Below, one piece after another: positions 20,660 to 30,212 of a DNA stretch of 64,000 nt. This stretch comes from Nitrososphaerota archaeon. Its GTDB lineage: Archaea; Thermoproteota; Nitrososphaeria; Nitrososphaerales; Gagatemarchaeaceae. The position numbers and the translations under genes were made by a program. The notes under the pieces were generated by a model. That model was not told where the DNA came from. It did not search any database and saw nothing but the letters and a program-made list of their open reading frames with translations. Where the stretch lies: the NCBI GenBank assembly GCA_029785195.1, contig JAFMAD010000003.1, positions 1 to 64,000 on the forward strand. The letters run 5' to 3'. Within the stretch, counting starts at the first letter, position 1. The number at the start of each line of letters is the position of its first letter.

Positions 20660-21148
20660 CTAGGCCCTCTTTAGGCTGTAGATGTACTTCTGGAGGAATC
20701 CGTCGATGTCTTCCTGCGTCCAGTTGTCCCACGGTTCTTTCCTATGGGGGATGAGGCCCCTCTCGGCAGCAAGCTTTCGGAGCCCCCTGTTCTCCGGCAA
20801 CATGGTGGAAAGGGCCATAGACAGAGCCAGGTTGTCCGTGAACTGCTGATACGCCTCGAATTTCATCGCCGCGTACCTGCCCCCGAGGGAGTACAGTTCG
20901 GGGCGTCGTCTCTCTACGTCTGCGCCCTCCACTTCAGAGACTCCATACGAGAAGAGCATCGAGACCAGCTCTTTCATGTCGGTGTATCCCATCCGCCTGG
21001 CGAAGTCGGCTATCTGTTGCCATGTCTTCCCCTCGAACCTCGCCGTGATTTTGACCGACTCCTCCGTGATGCGCGTCTCGAGGATTGAGTGAGAGTCAAC
21101 CTCCCAGTCACGCTGCCTCCGCAGGGCGGTGCCGAACAGATGGCGCAC
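20660..21148 (-). CDS. Unrecognised protein with RHH-like N-terminal region
   Basis: 162 residues from GTG placed directly after the stop of the preceding gene. Residues 28-70 (TEESVKITARFEG, then WQQIADFARRMGYTDMKELV) fit a strand-helix-helix unit like a ribbon-helix-helix DNA-binding domain, but without a clear signature. The rest is helical, rich in aromatic residues (EPWDNWTQEDIDGFLQKYIY at the end), with no membrane segment. Cotranscribed with the 105-residue protein and divergent from a ChrB-like protein. I do not recognise a family. Confidence 0.7.
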   Translation of the reverse strand: MRHLFGTALRRQRDWEVDSHSILETRITEESVKITARFEGKTWQQIADFARRMGYTDMKELVSMLFSYGVSEVEGADVERRRPELYSLGGRYAAMKFEAYQQFTDNLALSMALSTMLPENRGLRKLAAERGLIPHRKEPWDNWTQEDIDGFLQKYIYSLKRA

Positions 21149-21466
21149 TTACCTGCCCCTCCCCACAGGTTTCGCAGGCTCCAGCAGTTTCCTGAGCTCG
21201 TTGTTCTGTGAGTATATCTTCCTCAGTACCACATTGTCTCTTCTGTATTCCTCGAAACTCTTCTTCAGCTCAGCGTAGTCTTTCTCCATAAAGGCGAGTT
21301 GCAGGGGCCAGTACCTGTCGATGCCCTCAGTGAGGACTACCCTCAGCGCATTCTCCTTGTCAAGATGGCGGGAAGCGGAGAGGCGTTCGAAACGCTCGTA
21401 GTCTTCCCTGTTCACGGAGAACTCCACAACTTCCACCCCCTCCTTCCCCTTTCCCTTGTTATGCAA
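21149..21466 (-). CDS. RHH-like protein with coiled-coil tail
   Basis: 105 residues from TTG. Residues 10-50 read VEVVEFSVNREDYERFERLS then DKENALRVVLTEGIDRYW, compatible with an RHH strand and two helices; the second half (KDYAELKKSFEEYRRDN... to NNELRKLLEP) is a probable coiled coil. The inverted repeat TGTAAC-N4-GTTACA lies 11 nt before the start, where a bound protein would block this gene's own promoter, so this protein is my first candidate for the repressor. Family not recognised. Confidence 0.72.
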   Translation of the reverse strand: MHNKGKGKEGVEVVEFSVNREDYERFERLSASRHLDKENALRVVLTEGIDRYWPLQLAFMEKDYAELKKSFEEYRRDNVVLRKIYSQNNELRKLLEPAKPVGRGR

Positions 21467-21476
21467 ACCCTAAGGC

Positions 21477-21492
21477 TGTAACTGGGGTTACA
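21477..21492. promoter_or_regulatory. Inverted repeat operator, copy 1
   Basis: TGTAACTGGGGTTACA, perfect 6-bp arms with a 4-nt spacer, in the divergent region between the RHH-like genes and the ChrB-like gene. A TATATAA element follows at 21500-21506 and can serve either strand. A second copy with the same arms and spacer length lies at 22128. Confidence 0.8.
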
Positions 21493-21539
21493 CGGGGAAT
21501 ATATAACTGACGCTCTCGACAAGTGTGGGCCATGGCAGG

Positions 21540-21547
21540 CTTAAATC
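21540..21547 (+). promoter_or_regulatory. TATA box deciding the ChrB-like start
   Basis: CTTAAATC, centred 27 nt before the ATG at 21570. This supports that ATG over the in-frame ATG at 21525. Confidence 0.5.
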
Positions 21548-21569
21548 ACGCAGGCGGAGGTTCCTGCCA

Positions 21570-22115
21570 ATGAGTGGGCAGCCCGCCGAAAAGTGGATCG
21601 TGGTGGCCTATGACCTACCGAATGAGCCTTCAAAGCTCCGAGTCAAGGCCTGGAGGAACCTCAAGAAGCTCGGCGCCCTCTACCCGCAGGTGTCCCTCTG
21701 CATCCTCCCCAACACGCCGCAGGTCAGGAAGGAGATAGATCAGTTCAGGTCGGAATTCAGGAAGCACGGGGCCATCCTGGCGATGAACGCCAACGCCCTT
21801 GAAGCCCCGGATTCGGACGTGCTTTCCAGAATGTTCCAGGATGACAGGCGGAAGCAGTTCGAAGAAATCTATGAAGAGTGCCAGGAGTTCCTAGACGAGA
21901 TAAGCGAGAACCTGGCAAACAAGAAGATCACATACGAGGAGACCGACGAGCTTGAGCAGATTCTGGAGTCTCTGGAACGGTGGTACAAGAACGTGCGAGA
22001 GAAGGGGTATGGGCGAGATGAGGATTCCCTCAAAGTGGAGAGGAAATTATCGACGTGCAAGAAGGCGCTGACACGCTTCGCCGAGAAGGCGCAACCTCGG
22101 GGGATCAACAGATAG
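21570..22115 (+). CDS. ChrB N-terminal domain-like protein (Cas2-like fold)
   Basis: 181 residues. The N-terminal 75 residues (KWIVVAYDLPNEPSKLRVKAWRNL..., then LGALYPQVSLCILPNTPQ) match the N-terminal domain of chromate-resistance regulator ChrB and the related PaaX/Cas2-type ferredoxin-like fold: strand, loop PxEPSxLRV, helix with WR.LK.LGA, strand. The C-terminal half is a long charged coiled coil (QFEEIYEECQEFLDEISENL..., YKNVREKGYGRDEDSLKVER). It is flanked by two copies of the same inverted repeat. Chromate resistance is not implied: no ChrA transporter is here. Likely a sensor or regulator. Confidence 0.75.
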   Translation: MSGQPAEKWIVVAYDLPNEPSKLRVKAWRNLKKLGALYPQVSLCILPNTPQVRKEIDQFRSEFRKHGAILAMNANALEAPDSDVLSRMFQDDRRKQFEEIYEECQEFLDEISENLANKKITYEETDELEQILESLERWYKNVREKGYGRDEDSLKVERKLSTCKKALTRFAEKAQPRGINR

Positions 22116-22127
22116 CCAAGCCTTTGA

Positions 22128-22151
22128 TGTAACCAGAGTTACATTTAATTA
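22128..22151 (+). promoter_or_regulatory. Inverted repeat operator, copy 2, abutting a TATA box
   Basis: TGTAACCAGAGTTACA (22128-22143) has the same arms and spacer length as copy 1. TTTAATTA (22144-22151) begins at the next base and is the only good TATA element before the six-gene membrane complex, about 130 nt upstream of its first start codon. A protein on the repeat would sit on the BRE/TATA position. Confidence 0.7.
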
Positions 22152-22306
22152 CCGAGTATGAGGAGGCGACGCGAACTCCCCGTGTGCCCCGCCATGCCCA
22201 ATGCTGACTCTTGTAGCGGAGTTTCACCTATCGAGCGCTCCCAGGCTCCCCGAGGGTGTGAGGCCCGGCGCAGAATTCGGACAGACCGCATCGGAGCGAC
22301 ACTAGA

Positions 22307-23278
22307 TTGTCTGACCAGCTCACACTCCAGGCCATAAACTCCATCCAGGTGGGGACGGTTCTTGCCCTCTCGCCTCTCATAGCCGGGGTCATCAACCGGC
22401 TGAAGGCGATTCTCGAGTCCAAGCGAGGGCCTCCCATCCTCCAGCCTTACTATGACCTTGCCAAGCTGTTCAGGAAGGAGACTGTCATCCCCGAAAGGGC
22501 TTCGGCCTTCTTCGTGCTGGCGCCATTCCTCTCGTTCACAGCATACATCGTAATCTCACTGGTCATCCCCATCGTGACTCCGTACCCGCTCCCTTACGGC
22601 ATCCTCCTCGACTTGCTGGGAGGGGCTCTGATGTTCGGCCTGGCCGGGGTGGTCGGGATTGTCGCGGCGATAGACGCCCACACGAACTACACCGCCCTCG
22701 GGGCGAGCAGGAGCGCCTCTTTCTCCGCCCTGGCCGAGCCGACACTGATTATGGTCTTCTTCGGGGTTGCACTGATCACTGGGACTAACAACCCCTACGT
22801 GACCAACAACCTCCTCGCCACCTCGACAGCCTGGTACCTCTCGGCCACCCACATCCTAGTCCTGTCGTCCTTCTTCATGCTCCTGCTGGTGGAGACTGGG
22901 CGCCTCCCGGTGGAGAGCTCCGGCCTGATGGAGCTGGGGATGCTCGACGACGCCAAGGTGATGGAGCACTCGGGGAGGCTCCTGGCGATGTCCAGGTGGG
23001 GCGGCTACATGAAACAGTTCATCCTCATGTCGGTGTTCCTTAACGTCTTCCTTCTCCCGTGGTGGATGTCCAGCGCGGTCTCAGTCCAGGGGGCGCTGTA
23101 CTCCGTCGGGACGCTGGTCCTCAAACTTCTTGGCCTAGCCGTCGTAATAGTGATAACAGAAGAGACCTTCGCGAAGCTCCGCCTTTTCAAGATCCTCGAC
23201 TTCCTCGCCATCTCGTTCAGCCTCGGGCTCCTCGCGGTCATAGCGTTCTTCCTGGTCGGAGGGGGGCCCCTGCCGTGA
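22307..23278 (+). CDS. Hydrogenase-4 component C / NuoH-like membrane subunit
   Basis: 323 residues from TTG, eight helices. ALSPLIAGVINRLKAILESKRGPPILQPYYDLAKLFRKE is the quinone-site/loop-1 motif of NuoH, HycD and EchB proteins (ESKRGPP.LQPY.D..KL..KE), and LLLVETGRLPVESSGLMELGM carries the conserved E-TGRLPV-E loop. It anchors the soluble arm to the membrane and links redox chemistry to ion movement. First gene of the operon; the following start overlaps its stop. Confidence 0.93.
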   Translation: MSDQLTLQAINSIQVGTVLALSPLIAGVINRLKAILESKRGPPILQPYYDLAKLFRKETVIPERASAFFVLAPFLSFTAYIVISLVIPIVTPYPLPYGILLDLLGGALMFGLAGVVGIVAAIDAHTNYTALGASRSASFSALAEPTLIMVFFGVALITGTNNPYVTNNLLATSTAWYLSATHILVLSSFFMLLLVETGRLPVESSGLMELGMLDDAKVMEHSGRLLAMSRWGGYMKQFILMSVFLNVFLLPWWMSSAVSVQGALYSVGTLVLKLLGLAVVIVITEETFAKLRLFKILDFLAISFSLGLLAVIAFFLVGGGPLP

Positions 23279-23934
23279 TACTCCCTCAGCCTCTCCTCGG
23301 TGAGCTCTCCGGGCTCCTCGGGATGCTGGTGCTCCTGACGGCCCTGTACCTGCAGAGCCAGACCTTCGTGGATCCCACGATAAGGGGCGTGGCCGCCCAG
23401 TCGCTGTTCCTCGCCTTCCTCTTCGTGATTCTCTTCCTGGGGTCGGGGGACGTGAATCTCCTCTACCTGGCGGCGATAACCGCAGGGATACGCGGACTCC
23501 TCATCCCCGCGGTGATGCTGTACCAGGTGCGCCGCTTCAAGCACAGCCTGAGGGAGAGCGGGTCCGGCCAGAGGGTGCCTTCACTGGTGATTGTCGGAGT
23601 CATCGTGGTGATTGGAGGATACGCCCTGTTCAAGACGGTGTTGCTGCCTACCCTTTCCAACCCATCCGCTTCCGTCCCCTTTGTCCTAGTGCTCCTCAGT
23701 CTCCTCCTCATGGCCACCCGAAGGAACGCTCTCACCCAGATGACCGGATTTCTGGAGGAGGAGAACGCCGTGCTCTATGCGGGGGCCCTCGTCGCCCCAT
23801 CGATACCCCTGCTAATCGAGTTCGCGGTGGTCCTGGACATTCTTGGGGTCATCCTAGTGGGGGTGATCCTCTCCGCTACCCGTGATGTCCTGAGATTGCT
23901 TGACGAGCCCGAGTTGGAGCAACTCACCGGGTGA
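23275..23934 (+). CDS. Hydrogenase-4 component E-like membrane subunit
   Basis: 219 residues from a GTG overlapping the previous stop. Seven or so helices; the middle VPSLVIVGVIVVIGGYALF and the late GFLEEENAVLYAGALVAPSIPLLIEFAVVLDIL (conserved glutamates of HyfE, which resembles NuoK plus an extension) identify the family. Part of the proton/ion path in group 4 hydrogenase-type complexes. Confidence 0.85.
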   Translation: MILPQPLLGELSGLLGMLVLLTALYLQSQTFVDPTIRGVAAQSLFLAFLFVILFLGSGDVNLLYLAAITAGIRGLLIPAVMLYQVRRFKHSLRESGSGQRVPSLVIVGVIVVIGGYALFKTVLLPTLSNPSASVPFVLVLLSLLLMATRRNALTQMTGFLEEENAVLYAGALVAPSIPLLIEFAVVLDILGVILVGVILSATRDVLRLLDEPELEQLTG

Positions 23935-23940
23935 TATCGA

Positions 23941-25383
23941 ATGGACCAGAGCCTGATCTTCATCGCACTGCTGGCTGCTCCCGCCGCCGGAGCGGCCATC
24001 TCCCTCGTGCCCAGGGACGGGGTGGAGGTCGCGGCATCCCTGGCCTCTTCGGCCGCGGCCGTCCTGGTCTCTCTGTTCTTGCTCGCCTCCGGGACATCGG
24101 GGGTGTTTGGCCTGTTCTACTCAGACGGCCTCACACGGATAATGGCGATTACCATCTCCTCAGTGTTCTTCACCTCCGTGGCTTATTCGTGGTTCTACGT
24201 GAGGCGGATCAACGAGCCCCTCATACGCTTCAGGTGGTACTACTCCCTGCTCGACCTCTTCGCCTTCACCATGTTCCTGGCCGTTACGGTGAACGACCTC
24301 GGCATCGTGTGGATTGCGATCGAGGCGACGACCGTGACCAGCGCCCTCCTCGTCGCCCTGGAACGCGAGAGGACCAGCGTAGAAGCGGCCTGGCGCTACA
24401 CCCTCATCGTCTCCGCGGGCCTCGTGGCTTCACTCCTCTCCGTCGTCTTCGTCTACTACTCGCAGGGGACTCTCCTGATTTCCGACCTCATGGGATCCTC
24501 CATACGCGCTGGGCTGCTCATGCCGGTCGCCGTCGGCTTCGCCCTCGTTGGCTATGGGACCAAGGCAGGTATCGCGCCTATGCACGCCTGGCTCCCCGAC
24601 GCCCACAGCGAAGCTCCCTCGCCAGTCAGCGCTATGTTCTCGGGTATCCTCCTTCCGACGTCGATCTACGCTCTCGTGAGGACGTTCAACCTGCTGCAGG
24701 GACTAGCCTCCTTCGGGGCCATGCGGAACCTTCTCATCGGGTTCGGGGTATTCACTGCTCTGCTCGCCGCCATCATAATGGGACACCAGCGGAATTACAA
24801 GAGAATGCTCGCGTATTCCAGCATGGAGAACATGGGCATCATACTGATCGGCTTCGCGCTCGGCGGCATCGGGATCGTAGGCGCAGCTGTCCAGATAGTC
24901 GCCCACGCCTTCGCAAAGTCCTCCGCCTTCTACGAGTCCGGTAACATACTCGTCGCCTACGAAAGCAAGAACATGGCCGAAGTCCAGGGGGTTGCGGGAA
25001 GGCTGAGGTACAGCGGCTACCTCTTCGCGCTCTCCTGTCTTGCTGTGACCGGCGCCCCGCCGTTCGGCGTCTTCGTGGGTGAATTCATGATACTGACGAT
25101 GGCGCTGAGCACGGGAAACGTCGCGCTCGTCCTACTGCTCGCGGCCGTCTACATCTATGGGTTCATCGGCCTGAACAGGCAGTCAGTAAAGATGGTATTC
25201 GGGCAGAGCAGTTCCGGGCAACTGGTAGATGGGACGACCGCTGGGCCGGCCCCGCGAGCCGCACCGCAGGGTGAACACTGGGTCTCGGTCGCAATCCCGC
25301 TGGCCAACTTGGCCGTGGCACTAGTCATAGGTGTGTACATGAGCCCGATGCTTCTACAGGCGGCCCAGGGGATGGTGCCTTGA
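23941..25383 (+). CDS. Hydrogenase-4 component F-like antiporter subunit (NuoN/MrpD type)
   Basis: 480 residues, about fourteen helices. WIAIEATTVTSALLVALERERTSVEAAWRY holds the conserved glutamate of helix 5, GYGTKAGIAPMHAWLPDAHSEAPSPVSAMFSG is the proton_antipo_M signature with its lysine, and GHQRNYKRMLAYSSMENMG and AHAFAKSSAFYESGN complete the HyfF pattern. It is an ion-translocating subunit. Confidence 0.93.
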   Translation: MDQSLIFIALLAAPAAGAAISLVPRDGVEVAASLASSAAAVLVSLFLLASGTSGVFGLFYSDGLTRIMAITISSVFFTSVAYSWFYVRRINEPLIRFRWYYSLLDLFAFTMFLAVTVNDLGIVWIAIEATTVTSALLVALERERTSVEAAWRYTLIVSAGLVASLLSVVFVYYSQGTLLISDLMGSSIRAGLLMPVAVGFALVGYGTKAGIAPMHAWLPDAHSEAPSPVSAMFSGILLPTSIYALVRTFNLLQGLASFGAMRNLLIGFGVFTALLAAIIMGHQRNYKRMLAYSSMENMGIILIGFALGGIGIVGAAVQIVAHAFAKSSAFYESGNILVAYESKNMAEVQGVAGRLRYSGYLFALSCLAVTGAPPFGVFVGEFMILTMALSTGNVALVLLLAAVYIYGFIGLNRQSVKMVFGQSSSGQLVDGTTAGPAPRAAPQGEHWVSVAIPLANLAVALVIGVYMSPMLLQAAQGMVP

Positions 25384-26735
25384 GCCGCGGGTCGGAAACC
25401 CTGAACGGTGGCGGCGTAGAGAGGCGCAACTTGGAAAGCCTCGGGGAGAAGATGCAGCTCTCATCAGTCTTCCAGGCCGGGGGCCTAAACTACGCGCTGA
25501 TCTCCGATATGGAAACCAACAAGACCATCATCAGCGAGCTCCCCCCGACTCTTAGCGAAGAGTTCGGCGCGCTGCTCCGGGGCAGCGGCGCGGAGCCAGG
25601 GTCCCCATTGGTGCTTGAGGCCGGCGGTAGGGTCGAGGGCTATGGCGTGTTCGAGTTCTCCTACGGCCCGACCAGTTGGGGCGTCCCGGAGGCAGGCGCG
25701 TTCAGCCTCATGACCTACGGAGAGAGGATCCTCAAGGTGGTCCCTAGGCTCAATTTCAAGAAGCGCGGCGTGGAGCGGGCAGTCCTGGGGCTCACTCCGG
25801 AGGACGCGCTCCTTTTTGTCGAGAGGTCGGCGGGCAACTTCTCCGCAGCTTACTCGACCTGTTTCGCGACTGCGGTGGAGGACGCCCTCGGCCTGGGTGT
25901 CCCTTCGGAGGCCAGGTGGACCAGGGCCGTGGCCCTGGAGCTCGAAAGAATCTACAACCACCTGTACGTCTTCGGCCGCCTGGCGGAGGCGGCATCCCAG
26001 AACATTGCGGCGACCCAGACGCACGCGCTCCGGGAGAGGGTCCTGAGGCTGAATTCTAGGCACTTCGGGCACAGGTATCTCTTCGGCATCAATTCAATCG
26101 GTGGAGTGCGCCGGGGCCTTCCCAAGGACGAACGGAGCGCCCTGACGACGGAGGTCAGGCTGGTCGCCAGGGAGTTCTCGGAGCTCGTGCAGTACTTCCT
26201 TTCTTCGCGCATATTCCTCGACAGGCTTCAGGGGACCGCGAAGCTCACGAGGAAGGACGCCTTCGGCCTCGGTACGGTCGGGCCCTCGGCCCGAGGGTCG
26301 GGCGTGCAGTGGGACGACAGACTGACCTTTCCTTTGGAGCCCTACGAGGACATCTACGTCAACCTGGAGACCGAGGATGGAGAGGACACCATGGCTAGGA
26401 CCATGGTGAGGGTGAGGGAAGTCGAGTCCAGCTCAATCGCGCTGAGGGAGCTGTTGGATAGGATGCCTTCAGACGGAACGAAGAGCGGCCCCGATAGGCG
26501 ACGAGCAGACGGCCTTGGGGCGGGCTTCTCCTTCTGCAGGGTCGAAAGCCCGAGCGGGGATCTGATACAGGTAGTCCAGCTCGACGGCGGCGGGAGGGTG
26601 AGCGGTCTGCACGTGCGGCCGCCGTCCCTGGTGAACTGGCTCCCATTCGCGCGGAGCCTTGAAGGCACGGTGTTTACCGATTTCCAATTCGCCTTTGAAA
26701 GCTTCGGCCTCTCGTTCGCGGACTCAGACAGGTGA
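25380..26735 (+). CDS. NiFe-hydrogenase large subunit homologue lacking Ni ligands (Ehr-type)
   Basis: 451 residues from a TTG overlapping the previous stop. The N-terminal part resembles NuoC/HyfG (VPEAGAFSLMTYGERILKVVPRLNFKKRGVER), and LELERIYNHLYVFGRLAEAA is the conserved E-R..NHL..... block of NuoD/HyfG. At the first Ni site, where hydrogenases have RICGIC, the sequence is RSAGNFSAAYS; at the C terminus, where DPCxxC is expected, it reads ESFGLSFADSDR. Both CxxC pairs are gone, so no H2 chemistry is expected. This matches energy-converting-hydrogenase-related (Ehr) proteins and complex I subunit D. The electron acceptor is unknown. Confidence 0.88.
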   Translation: MSRGSETLNGGGVERRNLESLGEKMQLSSVFQAGGLNYALISDMETNKTIISELPPTLSEEFGALLRGSGAEPGSPLVLEAGGRVEGYGVFEFSYGPTSWGVPEAGAFSLMTYGERILKVVPRLNFKKRGVERAVLGLTPEDALLFVERSAGNFSAAYSTCFATAVEDALGLGVPSEARWTRAVALELERIYNHLYVFGRLAEAASQNIAATQTHALRERVLRLNSRHFGHRYLFGINSIGGVRRGLPKDERSALTTEVRLVAREFSELVQYFLSSRIFLDRLQGTAKLTRKDAFGLGTVGPSARGSGVQWDDRLTFPLEPYEDIYVNLETEDGEDTMARTMVRVREVESSSIALRELLDRMPSDGTKSGPDRRRADGLGAGFSFCRVESPSGDLIQVVQLDGGGRVSGLHVRPPSLVNWLPFARSLEGTVFTDFQFAFESFGLSFADSDR

Positions 26736-26744
26736 ACGTGGAAC

Positions 26745-27479
26745 ATGCCAAAGATCTGGATCCTCCGCGGGCTGAAGAAAGGGATACTCACCACAGCCTA
26801 CCCGAAGTCCCAGCCGACGTCCGAGGAGGTCCCGACGCGTTCACTTCCGCCGAGGCCCACCGACGCCGCGGACTGGCCCGCCGGAGAGAGGGGGTGCCCA
26901 ACCGGCGCCATCGATTCAGGGGACAAGAAGGTAGACTTGGGGCGCTGCGTCTACTGCCGCTTCTGCTCTTCGGCTGGGTTCGCCTTCGAGGACGGGTTCG
27001 GGAGCCGCGCAGGGGCCATGCAGGCTAGCCTCACGGGGAACTGCGCTACGGGAACCCGACATATCTTCGGAAGGTCGTTCCACGTCATGATGATTGACGT
27101 CGGGTCGTGCAACGCCTGCAACCTTGAGGTGCTGAACCTCTCAAACCCGTACTACGACCTCTCGAGGATGGGTATCGCTTTCACGAACTCTCCCAAGCAC
27201 GCGGACGCCCTGATCGTCGTTGGGGCCCTCAACCAGGCGATGGTGGATGTCCTCAGGAGGACCTATGAGAGCATGCCAGAGCCGAAGCTGGTCCTCTCCG
27301 TCGGCGCCTGCGCCATAAGCGGAGGGATCTTCAGGGGGGCGGAAGGCTTCGTTTCTCCCGCGGGCGACGCGATCCCCGTGGACGTCGTCGTCCCCGGTTG
27401 TCCGCCTTCGCCTGTCCAAATCCTGGAAGGGCTGCTACTGGCCGCGGGCCGGTTGAAGGAGGAGGGGGTGAGGCGATGA
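26745..27479 (+). CDS. Ferredoxin-small subunit fusion (HyfH/HyfI, NuoI/NuoB-like)
   Basis: 244 residues. Residues 1-95 are a reduced ferredoxin module: GCPTGAI and CVYCRFC supply four cysteines for one [4Fe-4S] cluster, the second cluster set is missing. Residues 105-244 are the small subunit, with GSCNACNLEV, SVGACAISGG and VVPGCPPSP giving four Cys for the proximal [4Fe-4S] cluster. Such a fused module makes the electron wire of the soluble arm. The last stop overlaps the next ATG. Confidence 0.88.
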   Translation: MPKIWILRGLKKGILTTAYPKSQPTSEEVPTRSLPPRPTDAADWPAGERGCPTGAIDSGDKKVDLGRCVYCRFCSSAGFAFEDGFGSRAGAMQASLTGNCATGTRHIFGRSFHVMMIDVGSCNACNLEVLNLSNPYYDLSRMGIAFTNSPKHADALIVVGALNQAMVDVLRRTYESMPEPKLVLSVGACAISGGIFRGAEGFVSPAGDAIPVDVVVPGCPPSPVQILEGLLLAAGRLKEEGVRR

Positions 27480-29530
27480 TTCCGGCATACCTAATCACCA
27501 GCCTCCTCTTCGGGACCCTGGCGCTGCTCGGCGCGGGTTTCGTGCTAGGCCTGTTCGCCAAGAAGGCCGCGTACATGCTGGGGGGCGTGGGTTCCGCCCT
27601 GGGAGCGGCGCTCTCGCTCATCGCTCTGACGTCGGGCAGGATGGTCGCCATCGACCTCTGGCTGGTGAACTCCACGAGCTATGCCCAGCTCCAGGTCTCG
27701 CCGCTCAATGCCTACTTCCTCCTGATTTCCTCGCTGGTCTGGCTCGGGACGTGCCTGTACTCGGTGGGGTACGATGACGACTATCCCAAGTCACTCTCTT
27801 CGCTCCTGCTCCTCACCATCCTGTCGATGGTCATCGTGCTGGTGAGCGGTGACGCGTTCACCTTCCTGATTGGCTGGGAGTCGATGACCATCGCATCGTT
27901 CTTCATGATCCTAGAAGGGAAGGGGGACAAGGAGGGTGTCAGGAATGCGGCCTACCTCTTCCTGGCCTTCGGTGAAGGGAGTAGCGTGCTCATCATGCTC
28001 TCATTTGCCGGACTCTTCTCCGCCGCCGGCACCTTCAGCTTCATGGGCCCCGCTGCAGCCAGGGTCGTCACGCCTCTGGGTCCTTGGATCTTCGTCACCG
28101 CCCTCCTGGGCTTCGGTCTGAAGATGGGGCTGGCCCCGTTCCACATGAGCGAATGGCTCCCGATAGCTCACTCGAGCGCCGCTTCGAACGCATCAGCTCT
28201 GCTCTCTTCAACGCTCACCCTTATGGGGGTCTACGGTATCATCGACGTCGTCTCGCACCTGGGGGGGTATCAGCTGTGGTGGGGGTGGCTAGCATTGACC
28301 ATCGGCGGAGTGTCGGCCCTCCTGGGGGCCCTGTTCAGCTCGGTCTCCGAGCACTCAAAGGGCCTGCCCGCATACAGCACCATAGAAAACAACGGGATGA
28401 TAGTGGTGGCCATCGGGGTGTATCTCATCGCCACCTACTATAACCTCACCCTCCTGGCTGACTTCGCCCTCGTGGCAGCCCTCTTCCACGCTTTCTCTCA
28501 CTCCATCTCGAAGGCGTCCCTCTTCCTGTTGAACGGGTGGATGAGCAAACTCAGGGGGACCTTCGACCTGAGCAGCGCCAACCCGATCCCCGCGGGTGGG
28601 GGGAGGGGGCTGCGTCCCCTCGGGATCTTCACTGCTCTCTCGCTCGCGGCCGTCCCCCCGCTCGCCGGATTCGTCTCGGAGTGGATGGTCCTGGAGACGC
28701 TGTTCCAGTCGTTCAGGTTCGGAGACCTGACCAGCCAAATCTTGGGGGCCCTGGTGGGGGCGATGGTCGCCCTCGCCGCCGGCATAATGATGGTCACCAT
28801 GACCAAAGTCTATGGGTTCGGAATACTCTGGCCGAGGAGGACCGCTGAGCCTGGCAAAAAGGGAGGGGCGTACATCGGTGGGGGCCTCGTCTACTTCACA
28901 GTGCTCATCGTCGCGGTCGGGGCAGCGGCGCCGGGTGTATTTTACCTCGCCTCCCAGGCTGCATCACGGATGCTGGGGGCGAACCCCTATGGGCCATTCG
29001 TCACAGGGCTGCTTGGCGTCCCCGCCCCATTCGTGATTCTCTCCGGCAGCCCGTTCGGTGGCTTTTCCCCCACCTTCACAGCCCTGGCGTTCCTCTCCAT
29101 CCTGCTAGTCACCTTAGCCATTACCGGCGCCGTCCGAGCGCGCCCGCCCCGATTCGGGCTCCGTGTCAGGAGGACCCCTGGATGGTTCGCGGGGGCGGCC
29201 CAGGCGGACGACTCCACCGCCATGTACAACTCCTTCGGCTACAGCACGCCTATCAGGATCATGCTGAGGTTCCTCTTCAGGACCAAGGAGAGCGTGGTCC
29301 AGGTAGGCTCTGTGCAGCGGACGGTCATCAGGTCTCCAGAGGAGTATGTGGTGGACCTCGAGGTGCTCGACGTGTTCAAGAAGTTCTATGACGCCCTCGC
29401 CATGTGGGCCTTGGGGCTGTCCGCTTATACAAGTAGGAGGGTGATGTCTGGGAAACTGGGTCTCTACATCGTCTACATCATGGCCGCCCTCATCTTCGTG
29501 CTGATCTATATCCTGCTCACAACAGGCTGA
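27476..29530 (+). CDS. Hydrogenase-4 component B-like antiporter subunit (NuoL/MrpA type)
   Basis: 684 residues, about sixteen helices. FLIGWESMTIASFFMILEGKGD holds the helix-5 glutamate; GLKMGLAPFHMSEWLPIAHSSAASNASALLS has the helix-7 lysine and the Mrp signature; ALFHAFSHSISKASLFLLNG is the HyfB block. The C-terminal region (residues 560-684) has an amphipathic stretch followed by a last helix (LGLYIVYIMAALIFVLIYILL), similar to the long lateral helix of NuoL. Last gene of the operon; its end nearly meets the convergent UspA gene. Confidence 0.93.
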   Translation: MIPAYLITSLLFGTLALLGAGFVLGLFAKKAAYMLGGVGSALGAALSLIALTSGRMVAIDLWLVNSTSYAQLQVSPLNAYFLLISSLVWLGTCLYSVGYDDDYPKSLSSLLLLTILSMVIVLVSGDAFTFLIGWESMTIASFFMILEGKGDKEGVRNAAYLFLAFGEGSSVLIMLSFAGLFSAAGTFSFMGPAAARVVTPLGPWIFVTALLGFGLKMGLAPFHMSEWLPIAHSSAASNASALLSSTLTLMGVYGIIDVVSHLGGYQLWWGWLALTIGGVSALLGALFSSVSEHSKGLPAYSTIENNGMIVVAIGVYLIATYYNLTLLADFALVAALFHAFSHSISKASLFLLNGWMSKLRGTFDLSSANPIPAGGGRGLRPLGIFTALSLAAVPPLAGFVSEWMVLETLFQSFRFGDLTSQILGALVGAMVALAAGIMMVTMTKVYGFGILWPRRTAEPGKKGGAYIGGGLVYFTVLIVAVGAAAPGVFYLASQAASRMLGANPYGPFVTGLLGVPAPFVILSGSPFGGFSPTFTALAFLSILLVTLAITGAVRARPPRFGLRVRRTPGWFAGAAQADDSTAMYNSFGYSTPIRIMLRFLFRTKESVVQVGSVQRTVIRSPEEYVVDLEVLDVFKKFYDALAMWALGLSAYTSRRVMSGKLGLYIVYIMAALIFVLIYILLTTG

Positions 29531-29536
29531 AACAGA

Positions 29537-29971
29537 TCAGGGCACGATGAGCAGAGGATAGGGCCTGGACTTCAGGAAATGCGAAGACGTCGTCCCAAGG
29601 AGCTTCTCGGAAGTGGAGTGCTGCAGGGTCCCGAGGACAACGAGGTCTGGCTTCAACGCGGCCGCCAGCTCCAGAAGCTTCTCCCCCGAGTTCCCGACTT
29701 CTATGTGGGAGGCGGCGTTAATCAGGTTCTTCTTCACCGTCCGCTCGGCGTTCAGCAGGGTCTCAGTCGCTGACCTCCTCAGCGAATCCACCAACTCGTC
29801 GGGGACCGGGTCTGGGACTCCGGCCGGCTTCCGAACCACGTATGCGATGTGAATCACTGAGCCCTCGTTCTGCGAAGCGATTTCGACCGCGAAGGCGAGG
29901 GCGCGTTCCGACTGGGCTGACCCGTCGTATCCCACCAGCAGCTTTCTCAGCAGGGCTCTCCCACCTGTCAA
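29537..29971 (-). CDS. Universal stress protein (UspA family)
   Basis: 144 residues from TTG. LLVGYDGSAQSERALAFAVEIA is the N-terminal Usp motif, VEVGNSGEKLLELAAALKPDLVVLGT and SHFLKSRPYPLLIVP the C-terminal one. The ATP-binding G-2x-G-9x-G(S/T) motif is altered (GTLQHSTSEKLLGTTSSH), so nucleotide binding may be kept only in part. TATA element CTTATATG centred 27 nt upstream. Confidence 0.92.
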   Translation of the reverse strand: MTGGRALLRKLLVGYDGSAQSERALAFAVEIASQNEGSVIHIAYVVRKPAGVPDPVPDELVDSLRRSATETLLNAERTVKKNLINAASHIEVGNSGEKLLELAAALKPDLVVLGTLQHSTSEKLLGTTSSHFLKSRPYPLLIVP

Positions 29972-29993: not shown

Positions 29994-30001
29994 CATATAA
30001 G
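29994..30001 (-). promoter_or_regulatory. TATA box of the UspA gene
   Basis: CTTATATG on the minus strand, 27 nt before the TTG start, supporting that start and a leaderless message. Confidence 0.55.
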
Positions 30002-30212
30002 GCAACTGCCGTTACACCGAACTGGAGCGATGGGCGACCCTTGACCCCCCACGTGATCCTATGACCCAATGGACGAGCCTTCCTGGCGCCTTGTTCCGGT
30101 CCCCTGCCTCCTGCTCCGCGTCTGACGAGCATCACCGGCTGGACCGCTTAAATCCTATCCCTGCTCGGCTCTGCGTGCCAGTTGAAGTCGGCTCTCACGA
30201 GATGAGCGAGAG

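Follow-up and report, generated by a model that had tools for sequence, protein, structure and literature searches.

The present locus raises the question of which protein reads two identical palindromes flanking a small ChrB-like gene, and to which signal the genes behind them respond. The window, i.e. the whole 64,000-nt stretch of DNA analysed here, contains both copies, located computationally at 21477 and 22128 with identical arms and spacer, as an earlier note had claimed. Also in agreement with that note, a pattern search yielded no third exact copy of TGTAAC-N4-GTTACA in the 64,000-nt window, only a two-mismatch site at 30001-30016 being reported. The sites and their promoter elements are as follows.

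21477-21492, no strand assigned: putative operator 1, TGTAACTGGGGTTACA, an exact palindrome in the divergent RHH105 / ChrB-like promoter
21499-21506, no strand assigned: TATA-like element ATATATAA, bidirectionally readable and kept in orthologues, at 6 bp from operator 1
22128-22143, no strand assigned: putative operator 2, TGTAACCAGAGTTACA, an exact palindrome 5' of the six-gene complex
22144-22151, plus strand: TATA-like element TTTAATTA, abutting operator 2 and kept in the orthologous promoter alignment
30001-30016, no strand assigned: degenerate operator with two mismatches, 29 bp 5' of the universal stress gene

Motif counts were controlled with the reversed pattern. The 25 genomes of the same genus hold 33 exact copies of TGTAAC-N4-GTTACA versus none of the reversed pattern. 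Genome G000, to which the window belongs (1.6 Mb, 70 contigs), displays nine exact copies versus none, a count that is inflated because this bin appears to be mixed, probably a mixture of species. Three orthologous islands and complexes occur in G000, on C33, C68 and C69 (L033, L034 and L036); the window's copy is closest to G007, the NuoH-like subunits of C33 and G007 being 97% identical, and exact site spacings are common to C68 and G012 and to C69 and G015. The exact sites of G229 and G211 are intragenic and probably due to chance. The palindromes of the window are real, exact, far above chance and not private to it. Fragmentation of the bins, and the occurrence of two contigs in more than one bin, would favour chance or a non-regulatory repeat element; however, the reversed-pattern controls (33 versus 0), the placement of the sites at TATA boxes and the retention of the motif across phyla rule out chance or a mobile repeat, and the probability left to such an origin is negligible.

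The position of operator 1 is the same in the orthologous loci of G007, G008, G012, G011 and C68. When the repeat was looked for upstream of orthologous complexes, it was found there with the island adjoining, and the arms of operator 2 are invariant 5' of nine of them in the promoter alignment, which upholds the proposal that the sites link island and complex. The universal stress protein (USP) orthologues of G007 and C68 also have the operator 5' of the gene, the G007 site carrying one mismatch at a spacing of 29 bp, identical to that of the degenerate operator of the window. Most copies of the palindrome touch a TATA-like box or sit about 6 bp off, and two layouts occur. The order is operator-TATA-gene for the complex, USP, dynamin, phosphoesterase, MFS and CrcB genes, and TATA-operator-gene for RHH105, the MutS pair, NUDIX, F214 and the SQHop-like gene, where the operator covers the expected start region. 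Both layouts are compatible with a repressor occluding the promoter core; repression is what we infer, since the first layout taken alone would also fit an activator.

The genes of the island and the complex are given below.

20660-21148, minus strand: RHH162, 162 aa, co-operonic with RHH105, no Pfam family above cut-off
21149-21466, minus strand: RHH105, ribbon-helix-helix-like coiled-coil protein, matching RHH_1 weakly and under the cut-off (E 0.028)
21570-22115, plus strand: ChrB-like protein, 181 aa, the proposed repressor, ChrB_N (PF20229, Pfam E 8.6e-30)
22307-23278, plus strand: complex subunit, NADHdh/NuoH-like (Pfam E 2.4e-30)
23275-23934, plus strand: complex subunit, HyfE-like small membrane protein, in the same place and with 59% identity in the G340 complex
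23941-25383, plus strand: complex subunit, proton-antiporter-like (Pfam E 3.9e-48)
25380-26735, plus strand: complex subunit, 49-kDa/hydrogenase-large-subunit-like by Pfam, without CxxC
26745-27479, plus strand: complex subunit, 20-kDa FeS protein with a partial ferredoxin part (Pfam E 1.6e-27)
27398-29530, plus strand: complex subunit, second proton-antiporter-like (Pfam E 3.2e-29), the true start of the ORF being probably internal
29537-29971, minus strand: universal stress protein at the cluster end (Pfam Usp E 3.6e-20)

The complex resembles Ehr and formate hydrogenlyase-like complexes in its membrane and peripheral subunits, which are homologous to those of complex I and hydrogenases. Like that of Ehr complexes, its large subunit is devoid of CxxC and hence of the Ni-Fe ligand motifs, and the small subunit keeps its FeS-cluster cysteines. 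The difference from the known complexes lies in its probable membership of a fluoride-type regulon, for which the evidence is given further below.

Three small proteins encoded beside the sites had been proposed as candidate binders of both. Within the genus, the operator is present in all genomes having ChrB and ChrB in none lacking the operator; chrB, the RHH genes and the complex largely travel together there, so distant loci alone discriminate between the binders. Searching about 85,000 species genomes with a profile of the ChrB-like protein gave 16 loci, all of which contain the palindrome (≤1 mismatch) somewhere in the fetched stretch; in a Bacillota bacterium, two exact copies lie directly 3' of chrB. 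For 20 bacterial plasmid loci, the 220 bp 5' of chrB were scanned, and the best sites have 0, 1 and 2 mismatches in 5, 12 and 3 loci, respectively, whereas the reversed pattern always has at least three. The association computed across the family is equally evident in 300-bp flanks, where the motif accompanies 17 of 20 archaeal short chrB genes (≤1 mismatch) and all 22 bacterial ones (≤2 mismatches), as compared to 0 of 63 other ORFs of the bacterial loci; here too, the reversed pattern always had three or more mismatches. The three archaeal genes lacking a site within 300 bp have sites elsewhere in their loci.

These observations bear on two rival binders. The first is RHH105 or RHH162, binding both sites and regulating the complex. 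The start of RHH105 is 10 bp from operator 1, a distance that suits autorepression, and its weak RHH match is accompanied by a helix pattern consistent with that fold; the AF2 monomer (pTM 0.42) displays a long coiled coil besides two helices. However, neither family was found in the distant archaeal and Bacillota ChrB/operator loci tested, and G023 has two RHH105-RHH162 operons with riboswitches instead of the operator. The RHH proteins were therefore rejected as binders on distribution, and are very unlikely to fill that role. They are probably members (targets) of the regulon, since they are riboswitch-controlled in operator-less G023 and absent from the distant loci.

The second rival is an unlinked transcription factor, chrB being merely one of its targets. 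Arms of 6 bp with a 4-bp spacer are a generic geometry for dimeric factors, and DNA binding by the ChrB of the window is a prediction. Against this, chrB is the one gene constantly adjoining the motif in bacteria and archaea; in six distantly related archaea, the single exact copy per genome adjoins chrB in each case. The N-terminal domain of ChrB is, moreover, a known DNA binder, and an unlinked factor is accordingly given little probability. A literature text search for an earlier-described operator having these arms gave nothing usable. The ChrB-like protein (21570-22115) is the best candidate binder, because the distant loci tested lack the RHH-like proteins, and the motif is most likely where a ChrB-like repressor common to archaea and bacteria binds. 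Thus, of the three proteins proposed, the ChrB-like one alone tracks the motif across archaea and bacteria and is retained as the predicted binder, the two RHH proteins being dropped as such.

The ChrB-like protein scores 104 bits against PF20229 (cut-off 23), and its gene has an alternative GTG start at 21525. In its AF2 model (pLDDT 87.5), three long helices come after a Cas2-like core. Among PDB entries, the best fold match is PaaX 8a39 (E 0.018, probability 0.99), and a Pfam PaaX_M match was also found; a sequence search revealed no solved structure of a sequence relative. PaaX has an N-terminal winged helix. The short ChrB-like protein shares the Cas2-like core of these regulators, but the winged helix is missing from it, as evident from both Pfam and AF2. 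The gene for ChrB in G015 (L048 16942-17284) seems split or frameshifted, with its operators intact.

The ChrB of Ochrobactrum tritici (TnOtChr) is a dimeric negative regulator binding its own promoter, for which R18 and R23 are required, and chromate sensing has been assigned to its C-terminal domain (PMC3817168). Its two arginines match R24 and R29 of the window's protein, conserved with an equal five-residue spacing, R24 being replaced by Lys in a few family members; the matching was made by position and spacing via close two-domain relatives, without the O. tritici sequence. The two proteins also share the PF20229 domain at the N-terminus, a promoter-proximal inverted repeat, likely autorepression and a probable dimeric state. 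They differ in that the 181-aa protein stops after ChrB_N, lacks the C-terminal chromate-sensing domain, and is therefore not a chromate-type two-domain ChrB; it would also act at archaeal promoters and control a fluoride-type regulon. Promoters of split actinobacterial ChrB keep the palindrome, whereas in the examined promoters of two-domain chromate ChrB the repeat has diverged, unlike the exact TGTAAC-N4-GTTACA found here.

The nature of the signal was approached through the genes behind the operator. When genomes of the genus and of its relatives (Nitrososphaerales archaea, as metagenome bins) are taken together, the operator lies 5' of the six-gene complex, USP, a MutS-like pair, a dynamin-like GTPase, NUDIX, an MFS transporter, a calcineurin-like phosphoesterase, chrB, an AsnC-domain protein, RHH105-RHH162-F280, F214 and F136. 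A CrcB-DUF190 unit stands behind it in L076, and enolase adjoins operator-controlled genes, the nearest site being 366 bp away. Targets of the crcB motif, the fluoride riboswitch, include mutS, formate hydrogenlyase, enolase, pyrophosphatase and exporters (PMC2864571; PMC11139923). Owing to this resemblance, fluoride riboswitches were sought in the relatives.

A computational comparison showed the two gene sets to overlap. G023, of the same genus and with neither ChrB nor an exact operator, has a riboswitch 5' of RHH105-RHH162-F280-F214-MFS; in C68 and G012 the same operon carries the operator instead, with a NUDIX gene added. Two of the three riboswitches of the RHH operons score under the Rfam cut-off, but their E-values are significant and they retain the conserved letters of the aptamer. 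G340, of the same order and also without an exact operator, has six riboswitches within one cluster, one of them 5' of an orthologous six-gene complex whose NuoH-like subunit is 76% identical. Riboswitches of G245 precede a MutS pair-enolase operon and an MFS-pyrophosphatase-NUDIX-dynamin-F136 operon.

Several further genes were recorded at these loci. An SQHop/DUF6062-like pair follows riboswitches in G245, G211 and G376, and its relatives adjoin chrB and the operator in distant archaea; SQHop/prenyltransferase-like and DUF6062-like proteins (L168-L173; L217, L219, L220 and L221) are recurrent archaeal neighbours of operator and riboswitch alike. F214 and F280 (L034 2969-3613, L147 7939-9425) have no Pfam match, occur under both types of control, and are candidates for new fluoride-response proteins. 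In G340, two genes for TFB-like general transcription factors also lie behind riboswitches of the six-riboswitch cluster (L215 5892-7542, L216 1819-2961).

The targets of the operator hence match those of fluoride riboswitches in related genomes. The homologous targets comprise the Ehr/FHL-like complex, the MutS pair, enolase, MFS, NUDIX, dynamin, the RHH operon and CrcB-DUF190. The operator regulon is most likely a fluoride regulon under protein control, because in operator-less relatives the riboswitch stands before most of the target homologues. The earlier suggestion of a redox- or metabolite-responsive system finds no support, the gene set pointing to fluoride stress. The difference from the crcB motif (RF01734) is that the window would use a protein and a DNA operator: the aptamer was not found around the island, even at a relaxed threshold, nor was a hidden one in the 160-nt leader of the complex.

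Strict exclusion between operator and riboswitch within the genus is contradicted by G006 and G015, which have both. A recognisable CrcB is missing from 10 of 11 operator-positive genomes of the genus, and within the genus no operator-controlled exporter was observed. CLC channels occur in most operator-positive genomes; they were not accepted as the exporter of the regulon, as no operator link was shown.

It is quite likely, in our estimate, that the palindromes are operators of the product of the intervening ChrB-like gene and that this protein represses a set of fluoride-stress genes. If Ochrobactrum ChrB is taken as the model, a dimer of the ChrB-like protein would bind TGTAAC-N4-GTTACA beside or just 3' of the TATA box and block the transcription machinery, thereby shutting three promoters, namely that of its own gene and those of the divergent RHH105-RHH162 operon and of the six-gene complex. 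On exposure to fluoride stress the protein would be released and the fluoride-resistance genes turned on, making the system a protein-and-DNA counterpart of the fluoride riboswitch on the same genes. Fluoride, or a direct consequence of it, would be the signal: direct binding of fluoride by the ChrB-like protein is possible, and alternatively the protein could respond to a divalent-ion or acid imbalance.

Against the fluoride reading stands the chromate response of the characterised ChrB; Ochrobactrum ChrB senses chromate by its C-terminal domain, which is missing here. A third alternative is that ChrB binds the operators and the signal is a metal, oxyanion, acid or phosphate imbalance relieved by the regulon genes. 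Besides the chromate precedent, it draws on the bacterial short chrB genes, which often adjoin CDF, GDT1, MFS or phosphatase genes, and on the habitats of some relatives, which may be metal-rich and acidic as inferred from bin names only. This alternative appears unlikely, as the gene set overlaps heavily, family by family, with the fluoride-riboswitch targets of related archaea.

The bacterial neighbourhoods are of both kinds. Short chrB genes adjoin CrcB and DUF190 in Cereibacter and CLC and CrcB in Agrobacterium; in Pantoea the neighbours are enolase, USP and a probable pyrophosphatase with a DHHA2 domain. Many others adjoin metal or MFS transporters, not fluoride genes, and the ligands may for this reason differ between branches. 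In the mcr-5 transposon (L122, L124 and L131), a short chrB with a two-mismatch operator copy lies 5' of mcr-5, which may, to judge from this arrangement, be part of a ChrB-regulated operon; the adjoining MFS gene is similar (36-42%) to the MFS found behind fluoride riboswitches in archaea.

A broader proposition, advanced tentatively, is that the short ChrB proteins of bacteria and archaea might be Cas2-like, DNA-binding repressors without a classical helix-turn-helix that sense fluoride or a metal-fluoride complex directly and replace riboswitches promoter by promoter.

According to a 2024 review, a minority of fluoride exporters are riboswitch-controlled, and other fluoride regulators exist that are not yet known (PMC11139923). 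A literature search revealed no paper linking ChrB to fluoride regulation and no protein described as a fluoride-response regulator; the ChrB-like protein is a candidate for such a regulator. Now that a protein family, an operator sequence and a set of genes can be named, fluoride regulation becomes directly testable, also in bacteria with a short chrB beside crcB, CLC or enolase. If the proposal is true, RNA and protein control would have been swapped on the same operons during archaeal evolution, many genes annotated merely as 'ChrB' would gain a likely role, and the Ehr-like complex would be placed in fluoride defence.
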